DNA from: Malus domestica
Lineage: Eukaryota > Streptophyta > Magnoliopsida > Rosales > Rosaceae
Direction: 5' to 3'
Assembly: GCF_042453785.1 (NCBI RefSeq)
Contig: NC_091669.1
Location: forward strand, 12,350,501-12,414,500
DNA length: 64,000 nt
A model generated the notes under the pieces. It searched no databases. It saw nothing but the letters and a program-made list of their open reading frames with translations, and was not told the DNA's origin. The number at the start of each line of letters is the position of its first letter. Within the stretch, counting starts at the first letter, position 1. This document shows positions 38,082 to 53,518 of the stretch, piece after piece. A program made the translations under genes and the position numbers.

Positions 38082-41000
38082 ATGGAAAAAAACGAAAACG
38101 GCGTCGTCCCACAGCAGGAGGAGTGGAAGATGGTGGATTTTGGCCCTTCGTCAAAGGGAGAGGACGGCTTGCTTGAATCCCTTCCAACAAAAAAGAAAAG
38201 GCTCAGATTTTTCCGTACGCCCGTCCCGAAAATTTTTAGTACGTTCTCTCCTGTTCCTTTTCTACTTTGTTTGTTTGGCTGATTCTTTTCAAAGCGCACA
38301 GCTTTTTGGTGCTTCTACTTGGTTGCTTGACAAACACGTAATAGGTTATATATTTGGTTTCTAGAATCTAGGGAATTGTTGACTAAGTTCTTTTGAGGAG
38401 AAACTGTTAGTGTTACCCAATTTGGTATCTGTATGGTGATCGAGTCTTCGATCGGATAAAAGAAATAAGGTTAGGGTAAAATGGGAGTTTCATATATGGG
38501 CGTACCGTGGATCAGGCATGTATATTAAATTTACTATCTATATACGTCCACAGAATATCTAACGCATACATGTAATGCTTTTTTGGTATGTCTGAGGCAC
38601 TCGGATGGCCTCTGGTGGATGGTGAAAACTGAAACCATCCAATTTTAATAGAAACGAAAGGGCTTAAAACTATTTCAAATTGTATTGGCTAAATCTTAGG
38701 TTACCACTGTAGCAGTGAACTAAACTGTTTCATCTCTCTGTCTGCCTTTGCCTTGTTATGTGCAGAAAATAATATAACAAAGGTTTGGCCGGTGGTAGAA
38801 TCTGCTCTACTAGAGCATGACATGTCAGGTGAACTGGTATGTCATAATAAATGTTGTTTACGGAAAGTCTTATGTTGAGTTTGTACATCGGTTATCAATA
38901 TTTGTGTTCTCGACTGCGTATCTGGATTGATGAGATTTTATTTCAACTTATGGCCAGGTTGATGATTGCATGAGAGTCTCTACTACTGAAAAGACTAGAG
39001 ACCCAAAAGTTCTTGACAAGGCTAAGGGTCTTACTCGCCTTTTGGCAAGAAATTTTCCTGCACGTCTGGTACAAATGCCAGATTCTTTGTGATTGTTTTG
39101 TTATATGCAACTTATGATTGGTCTTTGTGTTCAAATGACTTGAAGTAGTTCGTAAGGTTTAGCTTTGTTCTTTCCATGCAATGTTGTTTTTTCTCTTTAA
39201 AGGCAACAACATCCCAAGAATATGTGTGTGTATGTAATACTGTATATAGATAGGATAGGAACCCCATTTTTTTAGAGGGATCCTGCTTCTCTGTTCATGG
39301 AGTGGGGTCCCGCTTATGATTATCGTCCTATATACATCTATAGCTTTATATCAGAACAATTTTACATTTGAATGAAAATTTAAGATTCTGATTTATCTAC
39401 CTTTAGTTAAGAATCTAAGATATGATGTATATTTACACTGATTTTTCTTTCTTGCTTGAAAACTCCAAGCATTTCTTTTTTCATGGTACTGGTCTTTGTT
39501 TGAGCTATCCTCTATAAGTTTCTCATTTGAGTGCTCAAGATTTTGATTTCAGGCAATAAAAGTACTAAATGACGAAAGGAAATACACTATGATCATGATT
39601 GGGCCCAAAAAATACGGGATTGACATGGTGGGTATCTCGTAAATTCCCCTTCTCCTTACTTGTAGCTGGGACCTCTTAGTCTCAGCCATTTAACCCGGTG
39701 ATTAGACCATATAACTTTTGTATGATGTTAGAAAAGTATAGATTTTGTTTACGACCTAGGTCTAGTGAATAAGGAAAGTGAGGACAATATCAGGAATATG
39801 AGCCTTTGGGTGTTCCATCACCTACTTGATGGAGAGGGCTATGCAAATTTAGTTTCCCTTGTTCTAATATCTCTACAATTGTGCACAGGAGAATTTCTAT
39901 AAACGGCGTGGACGTCTCATAGGTCCAGAGAAATCCACTTTAAAGGTGCATAAAGAGATATAGATTCTGTGCTTTACTGATCTTCCCACTAAAAGAAAAT
40001 TAATTCTTTGTTCTGCCTGATTTTCTAATTTTTGACGTTATGATTGGGACTCAGGCACTTTGCAAGGTGACGGGCTGTTATGTTATTGTTTCTGTAAGTG
40101 TTACCGTTCCTTTTGATTTCGTTGGTCCCATTGCATAGTTGTTTTTCTAGTGTTCCGACATCCAGATGAGGTATGAATTATAGATTTGATGATTTTTGAT
40201 TTACCTGTAAACTAGGGGTTCAGTGTTCCCGCTACTGGTTCATCTGAAGGATTACAGGTAGTCAAGAGGATTGTGGACGATTGCTTTCAGAATGGAACGT
40301 CCCCTGCATCCCTTATCTGGCTTGAAAGGAGACGTAAAGTGGTGAATATTCTCAAGGCTGTGTGTTTCTGAATTATGTTCTTCTGTCACCAGTGTGGCAA
40401 CATTATGTTTCCAGTGAATAGACCATCAACGCTGTTGATCTTTGTTTAAATGCACGGTCCAGATTCAGTCTTATAATGTCATTATGTGAAACAGTCCGGC
40501 AAGAGAACATGACACCATATATGTGGCATTCTTTCTCAGTTTAAAGAAGTTATTTGCTTCCTAAGGTATTGCTGATCACATGTGCTCTCCTCTTGTGGGC
40601 ATGCAGGCTGATAAAATTACTGTCGATAACCCATTTTACCAAATTGGAATTAGACCTAGCATTGATGTTGGTCGTTACCTTTGTTCATCCCTACTGGTAA
40701 TACTTCTGGAGTTCCTACTTTTTAACATTTTACAACAGTGATTAGGATCTAGAGCTTTTGATTGTTACTTCTAATATAAGAGGCAACTTCTTGAGCTTTT
40801 AGATATTGACATGCTTCGAATTGGTTGTTGTCAACAGGAACTCGTGAAAACCCAATTGATTTGCTGTGAACACGCACATAAAAAGTTTTCTGAGGCACTG
40901 CATCAGGGACATTTTAGAGATGTGCTAGAGATGATACAAGATACAGATGTGCTGGAGAAAATAGCAGAAAAGTTCAGCTCTTGGGTAAGCAATTAATTAA

Positions 41001-53000: not shown

Positions 53001-53518
53001 TATTTCTTCGTATTTATGTTTCTTGTTCTGTGAGGTTCTAATATTTATATATTGGAATAAATATTTACATGAGAAGCTTTCTTGTCAGGAAAATAGAGAG
53101 TGGACCGATTGGCATACGAATGTCCTATCAAGGCGTAATACTGTGGAGAATGTCTTTCTATGGGCTTGTGGGTATGTTTTCCTCTCAAAAGTAGTTGGTT
53201 TGAACCTGCAAAGTAACTCAGCGTACTGGTTACATTCAGTCAGTGTTTTCATTTCTGGTTATGTCTGATGTATCACTGTTCTCTTGTTTACATCTAAGCT
53301 AAGTATTTGCGTTCGGAGCTAAGCTAAGTATTCGTGGTGTAATCAATTGTAACAGGAACCCGGCAGTACAGGAGGAGATGTGTGATATGGAAGATGATTA
53401 TAGAGCAGTTAAGCTGATACTTCCTACAAGCCCCTGTAGAAAAAAAATGCGTTGCTCGCCTACAGATAATGTTAGCGAAGATGTTAGAACATCGGAACTG
53501 GAAGACCAGAAGATATAG
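38082..53518 (+). CDS. Chimeric KRR1-like KH / SAPS-domain protein, 15 exons
   Basis: Exons: 38082-38238, 38766-38836, 38958-39068, 39553-39627, 39889-39945, 40055-40093, 40216-40341, 40607-40696, 40838-40984, 51694-51788, 51887-52092, 52424-52625, 52701-52989, 53089-53171, 53356-53518. All have AG/GT borders and compatible phases, giving 636 aa. Residues about 77-212 resemble the KH region of KRR1, a small-subunit processome factor ([51 protein letters not shown]). Residues about 265-585 match the second half of the SAPS domain of PP6 regulatory subunits ([83 protein letters not shown]). The SAPS N-terminal half and the usual long C-terminal tail are missing. Intron 9 holds two copia elements. 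A real fusion is inferred from the frame; two truncated neighbouring genes are the alternative. Confidence 0.75.
41842..42556 (+). CDS. gag: Copia gag part, ended by a premature TGA
   Basis: From the ATG giving [10 protein letters not shown] the frame contains the copia gag core ([54 protein letters not shown], up to [16 protein letters not shown]). After that it enters a rearranged segment and stops at TGA 42554-42556. The CCHC knuckle, normally in the same protein, lies beyond in the same reading frame. In this lineage gag and pol normally form one frame, so the stop is probably damage. Confidence 0.85.
42557..45874 (+). CDS. pol: Copia pol (zinc knuckle, protease, integrase, RT, RNase H)
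   Basis: The open frame continues in the gag frame after the TGA. In order it holds [14 protein letters not shown] (CCHC knuckle), [11 protein letters not shown] (protease D-T-G), LWHMRLGH (pre-integrase zinc region), integrase with HSDVWGP, FVDDYSR and the DDE-glutamate segment [10 protein letters not shown] followed by [16 protein letters not shown] with [31 protein letters not shown] and YVDD, and RNase H with [27 protein letters not shown] and [17 protein letters not shown]. The C-terminus ADMLTK... HIMPI is intact. All catalytic motifs survive; only the junction with gag is broken. Confidence 0.93.
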   Translation, partial: NLKMCQMPLERDECAFCRNKGHWKKDCPKLKTKGKESSEANVAEVETDFSDFALTTSSSFDCATKWVLDTGCTHHMTPHKDWFSSLKEFDGGVVFMGDDNPCTTKGIGTVRLKLHDGMVKELTGVRYVPNLKKNLISLGTLESKGFRFHSDGQTLKVTYGALVVMKAPRCGHLYLLQGSTVTGEAFVVSENMGTSDSDTTRLWHMRLGHAGEKALQGLVKQGLLKGATTCKFDFCEHCVLGKQTRVKFGTAVHQTKGILDYVHSDVWGPTKTPSLSGRHWFVTFVDDYSRRSWVYTMKHKSEVLSIFLGWKKMVENQTGRKIKILRSDNGGEYTSDPFFKVCKEEGIVRHFSVRGTPQQNGVAERLNRTLLEKVRCMLSQSGLSKSFWAEAVNYACHIINRLPSAVIQGKTPMEVWTGKPSSDYDYIRIFGSPAYFHVTENKLDPRAKKAIFLGFSSGVKGYRLWCPEMKKLVISRDVTFDEESMYKVSEKNVKDVQQVELEKVASGTSNPISADVEATTSEEVGDHEDVEEVELEDSIQVEKQVSPQESIAKNRGKRQITKPARYSDYVSFALPIITDDIPSNFEEAIESEEKKRWCNAMGDEMNSLLKNKTWELAKLPKGKKAIGCKWVYAKKEDADEKSNVRFKARLVAKGYAQKEGIDYNEIFSPVVKHSSIRIMLALVAQYDLELVQLDVKTAFLHGDLNEEIYMCQPDGYIVKGKENLFCKLKKSLYGLKQSPRQWYLRFDKFMRGQNYSRSQYDHCVYFKKLQDGSFIYLLIYVDDMLIASKNVEEIEKLKKQMKNVFEMKDLGEAKKILGMEITRDREKGLVNLNQRQYLEKLIRKFGVHDSTKPVSTPLAPHFKLSSLQCPKNDKEKLQMKNIPYANLVGSLMYAMVCSRPDIAHAVGMVSRYMHNPGKEHWQAAKWILRYLHGTRDVGLCFERDDSGIGHFAVGYVDSDYAGDLDGRKSTTGYVFTMAKGPVCWRSILQSSVALSTTEAEYMAVAEAIKEAIWIHGLIRDLGVDQKQVEVHCDSQSAIYLAKYQVHHARTKHIDVRYHFVREIVGEGEIILQKIPTKDNPADMLTKVAGVAKFVHCLNLAHIMPI
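46809..51630 (-). mobile_element. Second copia element, opposite orientation, in the same intron
   Basis: The short LTRs lie at 46809-47110 (302 bp, 3' LTR) and 51335-51630 (296 bp, 5' LTR). In plus-strand terms they begin TGATAAATTCTGG and end AATTCCAACA. The length difference is a G run of 13 versus 7 bases; two substitutions were also seen. The 5-bp duplication GTCTC flanks the element (46804-46808, 51631-51635). The purine tract AAAGGGGAG precedes the 3' LTR on the minus strand. Its primer-binding region reads TGGCCTCAGAGCATAGG, an unusual variant of the TGGTATCAGAGC site. Confidence 0.95.
47262..51200 (-). CDS. gag-pol: Copia gag-pol polyprotein (frameshifted near its end)
   Basis: One frame of about 1,310 codons; the ATG giving [15 protein letters not shown] is the likely start. 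It contains gag ([27 protein letters not shown]), a CCHC knuckle ([14 protein letters not shown]), protease with [11 protein letters not shown] (D-N-G instead of D-S/T-G), WLWHKRFGH, integrase ([38 protein letters not shown]), RT ([22 protein letters not shown]) and RNase H ([32 protein letters not shown]). At about 47312 a single missing base shifts the frame, so the last 50 or so residues, which remain readable in another frame to about 47130, are replaced by 14 wrong ones and a stop. Confidence 0.92.

Follow-up and report, generated by a model that had tools for sequence, protein, structure and literature searches.

The stretch of Malus domestica DNA analysed here (the window; 64 000 nucleotides, C9:12350501-12414500 in a genome of 651 Mb in 19 contigs) contains, at positions 38082 to 53518 of its forward strand, a spliced frame in which a KRR1-like region is joined to part of a SAPS domain. 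This is probably (at a rough probability of 0.68) a real, old chimeric protein-coding gene that has been kept mainly for its SAPS part. Its origin from KRR1 and SAPS is shown by homology to the parental genes in the same genome. Over its longer history, selection was shown statistically, in samples of modest size, to have held the frame, with the SAPS part under tighter constraint than the KRR1 part.

Gene model and domain composition

In silico splicing of the 15 exons yielded 14 introns, all of which are bounded by GT...AG (28 of 28 splice dinucleotides intact), and a frame that remains open over 637 codons (636 amino acids and a stop), thereby reproducing the single frame with canonical borders of the original prediction. 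The domain search proposed in that prediction, performed with Pfam-A on the 636-residue product, bore out the claim that a KRR1-like KH region is joined to part of SAPS: the product was shown to match KRR1 KH1 at residues 49-120 (PF17903; 7.2e-10, 39.3 bits against a cut-off of 23.4), KRR1 KH2 at residues 132-196 (PF21800; 1.9e-17, 63.5 bits against a cut-off of 27) and, in two stretches, SAPS (PF04499; 1.1e-46, 160.2 bits against a cut-off of 25.6). Using phmmer, the solved KRR1 chains of yeast, human and Chaetomium were found to match residues 43-204 (best 9.9e-30), while a search for a solved SAPS chain returned no matches at E<=10. The earlier assignment of exons 1 to 8 to KRR1 and of the remainder to SAPS stands as regards the two families and has to be redrawn as regards the exons, as the KRR1 part comprises exons 1 to 7, the SAPS part comprises exons 8 to 14, and exon 15 is new.

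The KRR1-derived half

The KRR1 part is encoded by exon 1 (38082..38238; start codon and a diverged KRR1 N-terminus, ending in phase 1 as in KRR1), exons 2 (38766..38836) and 3 (38958..39068), which correspond to KH1, exon 4 (39553..39627), exons 5 (39889..39945) and 6 (40055..40093), which correspond to KH2, and exon 7 (40216..40341), the last exon of KRR1 origin. Models of true KRR1 built from C13 and C16 each comprise 379 residues and 12 exons. The starts of fusion exons 2 to 7 coincide with those of true KRR1 exons 2 to 7; exons 3, 5 and 6 are of parental length (111, 57 and 39 nt, respectively), and the differences of exon 1 (-30 nt), exon 2 (-6 nt), exon 4 (+6 nt) and exon 7 (+21 nt) from their parental counterparts are all multiples of three. 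These shared start positions and lengths place the resemblance to KRR1 beyond chance. Identity to the genome's own KRR1 amounts to 45% over 163 codons, over which the C13 and C16 proteins differ from each other at a single residue, and changes affect 35 of 84 deep invariants, in agreement with the earlier description of this part as diverged.

Exons 1 to 7 share with KRR1, a KH protein of the small subunit processome, the order of KH1 and KH2 and intron positions 1 to 6, and the fusion differs from KRR1 by its altered invariants, by its junction to SAPS and by the lack of everything after KH2. The KRR1 region that follows KH2 (HPxxxIKxLMxxxELxKDP...RFLPKF) and the lysine-rich C-terminus are absent, similarity to the C13 and C16 genes stopping in or just after exon 7. 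When this remainder was sought in window positions 51601-64000, the best match was a glutamate-rich stretch (E 0.023), which was judged to be due to chance. The KH2 loop reads GPEK in the fusion, GPNS in the genome's true KRR1 and GPNG in yeast KRR1; loss of the GXXG loop was considered as a mark of the fusion and rejected, since the true KRR1 genes on C13 and C16 also lack it.

Genome searches, which report best candidates, yielded 13 matches for the fusion KRR1 part, all on C9, and 21 for true KRR1, all on C13 or C16; neither query gave a match on C2. Separately, weak KRR1-KH2 profile matches were observed at C2:4716675, 4726778 and 4728452 (16.6-19.8 bits), the fusion's own exons scoring 17.6-18.4 bits with this profile.

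The SAPS-derived half

The SAPS part is encoded by exons 8 (40607..40696), 9 (40838..40984), 10 (51694..51788), 11 (51887..52092), 12 (52424..52625), 13 (52701..52989) and 14 (53089..53171), and is homologous to the SAPS-domain PP6/Sit4 regulatory subunits, which include human PP6R1-3, yeast Saps and plant SAPS. SAPS genes were found on C5, C10, C11 and C3 of the same genome, of which those on C10 and C5 exhibit 74-75% identity to exons 9 to 14 (over 316 and 314 codons, respectively). Compared with these subunits, the fusion lacks the N-terminal part and the C-terminal region, has lost two introns and carries a new tail of 53 residues. A complete SAPS domain with its N-terminal repeats is not present: exon 8 is the earliest of SAPS origin, is preceded by KRR1 sequence and corresponds to an internal parental exon, consistent with the original prediction that the N-terminal portion is missing. 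The two absent introns lie within exons 12 and 13, each of which fuses two parental exons. Beyond approximately 53201, the sequence no longer resembles parental SAPS, and exon 15 (53356..53518), encoding the new tail and the stop, has no counterpart among the exons of the four SAPS loci compared; it is shared with a rearranged copy on C5 (see below).

The SAPS genes on C5/C10 and C11/C3 and the KRR1 genes on C13/C16 form chromosome pairs with a silent divergence of 0.14-0.17 within pairs, which we take to reflect apple chromosome homoeology. C17, presumably the homoeologue of C9, returned no matches in the genome searches with SAPS or with the fusion KRR1 part (the latter a search for best candidates). 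Two SAPS-like exon remnants were also observed, at C9:30694236-30694457 (82% identity to the fusion SAPS half over 72 codons) and C14:27111251-27112139 (67% over 64 codons).

Site and nature of the junction

The end of intron 7 together with exon 8 (40532-40685) was aligned to the parental genes, resulting in scores of 46.5 (C10) and 47.5 (C5) against SAPS, neither of which was reached by any of 300 shuffles, and of 28.0 (C13; reached by 1 of 300) and 24.0 (C16; 45 of 300) against KRR1. The exon 8 region lines up with an internal parental SAPS exon, GHQDIVKKLVDLIGITSIME (parental exon GHQDIVKKLV...). As exon 8 and the intron end upstream of it align to SAPS, the junction is placed by these alignments inside intron 7 (40342..40606), between 40342 and approximately 40532. 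The exact point is not fixed, because longer alignments of intron 7 alone to SAPS do not exceed their shuffles (29.5 against 38.5, and 28.5 against 33.5). A narrower alignment of 40640-40870 scored 35.0 against C10, below its shuffles (35.5), and 35.5 against C5, above its shuffles (27.0). Exon 9, which had been considered as the fusion point based on the start of the C5 copy, was rejected since exon 8, upstream of it, aligns to SAPS. The parental SAPS donor lies at 40666/40667, 30 nt upstream of 40696, and either donor retains the frame, so that the 3' border of exon 8 (40666 or 40696) is uncertain; a 2-base deletion at approximately 40675 in the tandem copy described below would be intronic if the parental donor is used.

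The parental introns on both sides of the junction are in phase 0. Joining two such introns preserves the frame with no appeal to selection, and this accounts for the continuity across 14 introns that had been put forward as evidence of selection. With both parents identified and the junction located in introns of matching phase, the arrangement corresponds to a chimera formed by exon shuffling. Chimeric plant genes assembled from shuffled fragments, such as those associated with a soybean CACTA element, likewise join unrelated genomic fragments via introns into a new frame, as described in excerpts of that report (PMC1947982); compared with the chimeras in these excerpts, the fused frame described here is older than its tandem duplication, and no carrier element was identified for it.

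Tandem copy and Copia-type elements in intron 9

A second copy of the fusion was identified at C9:12428191-12447102, its start lying 39.6 kb downstream of the start of the window gene. It exhibits the same chain of exons 1 to 11 with a short intron 9, yet is broken: a stop interrupts each of exons 2 and 4, and the copy ends after exon 11; nothing corresponding to exons 12 to 15 was found up to C9:12474000.

Intron 9 of the window copy contains two Copia-type elements. The first (41114..46696, + strand) is bounded by long terminal repeats (LTRs) at 41114-41794 and 46016-46696 that differ by 2 mismatches in 681 positions, is flanked by a 5-bp target duplication (ACTTA) and encodes an RVT_2 reverse transcriptase, its coding region (41834-45874) being split into frames of 240 and 1104 amino acids. 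The second (46809..51633, - strand) has LTRs at 46809-47113 and 51335-51633 with 97.0% identity (3 mismatches and one gap in 305), a 5-bp target duplication (GTCTC), RVT_2 and copia-type gag, and an open frame of 1323 amino acids (47262-51233). Both elements are absent from the tandem copy, in which the empty sites are visible, indicating that both insertions postdate the local duplication. The duplication, the death of the downstream copy and the later Copia insertions in the window copy are thereby shown. As the 10.4 kb of transposon sequence is recent, its being spanned by the frame provides no evidence on selection; the argument of the original prediction from this point was rejected, given the youth of both elements and their absence from the tandem copy.

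Circularly permuted sequences related to the SAPS piece

The sequence downstream of the gene (53640..54521, + strand) has relatives on C5 and C10, where part of it sits upstream of the SAPS piece in a circular permutation. At C5:40273145-40275774, the order is window 53975-54521, followed by 40851-53639 and then 53926-53978; in the window, the SAPS piece is followed by 53926-53978 and 53975-54521, so that the C5 arrangement represents a circular permutation of it. Judged from coordinates only, C10:37163517-37164316 contains pieces of 53967-54355 and then of 53696-53977, without the SAPS piece. Shared letters were observed by eye at the joints (CCCA where the C5 piece is joined and TTCAAA close to the second joint). 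A repeat at window 53630-53854 was also seen to recur at C9:12412551-12412791 (window 62051-62291) and C9:12426576-12426807.

Duplication via circular DNA intermediates has reportedly occurred at cattle KIT. An origin of the C5 and C10 pieces from a window-like arrangement, via a circle or a tandem array, is the more likely, because the window possesses SAPS sequence upstream of 40851, where the C5 piece begins. The event would predate the separation of the chromosome pairs, as suggested by a silent divergence of 0.27 compared with 0.14-0.17 within the pairs. Excerpts of a report on circular-DNA-mediated duplication (PMC7450558) likewise describe a permuted order of segments and short shared sequences at the joints; here, the likeness applies to the sequences on C5/C10 that are related to the SAPS piece and does not extend to the fusion step.

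Selection on the chimeric frame

For the SAPS half, a dN/dS of 0.295 was obtained between the window and C10, and a lineage value of 0.31 (bootstrap 0.21-0.45; 314 codons), calculated on a branch that also takes in the stem common to the fusion and the parents. Among 166 residues constant in the four SAPS genes, 145 are kept and 21 are changed in the window copy, compared with 30 of 111 variable sites that match none of the four genes (p=0.004). Of these invariants, 87 are readable in the dead C5 copy, in which 27 are altered, compared with 14 in the window copy (p=0.03).

The KRR1 half was shown to be less constrained. Compared with C13, its dS is 0.81 and its dN 0.43 (ratio 0.53), with a lineage value of 0.59 (0.37-0.94), while the true KRR1 pair exhibits a dN/dS of 0.02. 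Deep invariants are nevertheless changed less often (35 of 84) than variable sites (42 of 65; p=0.008), and neutral simulation of this half to 45.4% identity (1000 runs) produced a mean of 4.4 stops and a probability of 0.01 for none, the number present. The proportion of invariants changed is higher than in the SAPS half (35/84 against 21/166, p=7e-7, the two invariant sets differing in depth). A dN/dS near 1 in both halves, which the original prediction had named as evidence against itself, was not found. When C11 served as outgroup, a three-way estimate returned silent branches of negative length, indicative of saturation, and was not used; estimates for the window branch with the C5 copy depended on the outgroup (0.32 with C10 and 0.73 with C5) and were not relied on.

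History of the locus and possible function of the product

In the history that these comparisons show, a genomic copy of KRR1 exons 1 to 7 was joined, within an intron, to a genomic SAPS copy from an internal exon onward, the two phase-0 introns keeping the frame and a new last exon replacing the SAPS C-terminus. Local duplication then gave rise to a downstream copy that died and to the window copy, which stayed intact and subsequently received two Copia insertions in intron 9.

According to excerpts of a report on human PP6R3 (PMC2765987), residues 1-513 bind PP6c, residues 1-355 do not, and E204/E205/E259/E262 matter for binding; N-terminal deletions are not among the PP6R3 fragments described in those excerpts. 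E63/E64, considered as the PP6c-binding site, were rejected, as the same source gives increased recovery for that mutant and a loss for E204/E205/E259/E262. In an alignment by eye (primer letters against plant sequence), the acidic loops of PP6R3 fall in fusion exons 9 to 11; aligned in this manner, an acidic pair is retained in the fusion at 334-335, while one acidic position, 292, has changed from D to N. For KRR1, excerpts of PMC5738357 describe binding of Kri1 by KH1, and contact with RNA and possible binding of Faf1 by KH2.

It is tentatively proposed that the product acts as a shortened SAPS-type PP6/Sit4 phosphatase-binding protein without the SAPS N-terminal part, i.e. as a competing or redirecting subunit, in which the relaxed KRR1-like KH pair would serve as a start, a promoter source and an arm for protein contacts instead of functioning in ribosome assembly. 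More doubtful is a lineage-specific PP6-type subunit created by exon shuffling, in which the KRR1 KH pair would replace the N-terminal SAPS repeats and redirect or block the phosphatase, possibly at nascent ribosomes.

Alternative explanations

Several observations weigh against a maintained chimeric gene, and some of these also speak for a reading in which both copies are decaying, the locus having once been a gene and the window copy being a pseudogene that has so far escaped a disabling change. This is possible, though not the reading we favour. The original prediction had itself mentioned a decaying fusion, which fits the tandem copy (dead, with two stops and a truncation) and may also hold for the window copy, intact though it is. 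With exon 1 left out, exons diverge less than introns between the two copies (29/1015 against 105/2316, p=0.027) and contain fewer indels (1 against 18, p=0.009). The full comparison, which takes in exon 1 and one intron block earlier left out, loses significance for substitutions (42/1156 against 112/2372, p=0.16), indels (5 against 18, p=0.18) and indels that are not multiples of three (3 against 16, p=0.09), which weakens the case for the chimera and raises that for decay; four of the five exon indels sit in exon 1 and jointly keep the frame. Polarised changes on the window branch (7 nonsynonymous and 3 synonymous) are too few to show constraint, those on the tandem branch number 6 and 5, with 25 and 10 unpolarised, and two changes confined to the window copy (G326R and H373Y) alter residues kept in all other copies compared. 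Under neutrality, the window copy would be expected to have acquired approximately 1.7 stops, 5.4 frameshifts and 1.2 splice losses (8.3 disabling changes), of which none was seen (joint P of approximately 2e-4), a frameshift expectation that assumes coding DNA to receive indels at the intron rate; if only stops are counted, the neutral probability that the frame has stayed intact since the duplication is 0.19. The intact splice dinucleotides also speak against decay. The earlier claim that the message is or was recently under selection is accordingly upheld for the past, on grounds other than those first given, while selection since the local duplication is suggested, not shown. Further points to be set against a maintained gene concern its two halves. 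With the true KRR1 pair at 0.02, almost every replacement change falls to the fusion, so that the KRR1 half, taken by itself, could have a dN/dS close to 1 should the true KRR1 branch account for half of the silent changes. Silent divergence from the parents differs between the KRR1 half (0.78-0.81) and the SAPS half (0.47-0.54), so that the two need not have been copied together. The exon 8 region scored only 20.0 against the more distant C11 SAPS gene (reached by 282 of 300 shuffles), and exon 8 protein alone recovered no SAPS exon by tblastn. Finally, the gene is a prediction from sequence.

A very unlikely alternative is that of two separate truncated genes, a KRR1-like gene ending at approximately 40.7 kb and a SAPS-like gene starting at exon 9 or at 51.7 kb. 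Although splicing could be disturbed by an intron 9 of 10.7 kb, the SAPS origin of exon 8 places the junction in intron 7, away from the proposed split between exons 8 and 9, and the tandem copy has the same chain of exons 1 to 11 with a short, element-free intron 9. Construction of the chimera by a fragment-capturing transposon (of the Helitron, Pack-MULE or CACTA type) would be compatible with genomic pieces that keep most of their introns and with the recurrence of the SAPS piece and its downstream sequence, permuted, on C5 and of the downstream part on C10; it is nonetheless unlikely, as window 53860-54600 occurs at three genomic places only (C9, C5 and C10; best-candidates search) and no element ends were seen, though no search aimed at such ends was made. 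With both modules present in the product, and with a SAPS part that covers the region aligned by eye with the PP6c-binding acidic loops (excerpts of PMC2765987), a new regulator whose two halves link a PP6-type phosphatase to the assembly of pre-ribosomes could also be envisaged. This is quite unlikely given a KRR1 half without the region after KH2 and with 35 of 84 deep invariants altered, and a SAPS half without its N-terminal part.

Neighbouring features

Elsewhere in the window, Pfam matches indicate an Exo70 exocyst subunit gene (2766-4784, - strand; 308.7 bits), an adaptin/coatomer N-terminal region (8509-10689, - strand; 315.6 bits) and a piece of a GDP-fucose O-fucosyltransferase (31477-32031, + strand; 37.4 bits), and a tRNA-Lys (TTT) was predicted at 34558-34630.

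Significance

Chimeric genes formed by exon shuffling are a known kind; a pairing of KRR1 with SAPS was not found in the open-licence literature searched. If, as favoured above, the window copy is a maintained chimeric gene, it would represent a new plant gene assembled from two conserved housekeeping genes. The parents, the intron junction, an intact and a dead copy, the empty insertion sites and a permuted relative are all present in one genome, and birth, duplication and partial decay can therefore be ordered. The value of this locus lies in the completeness of that history rather than in a novel mechanism.

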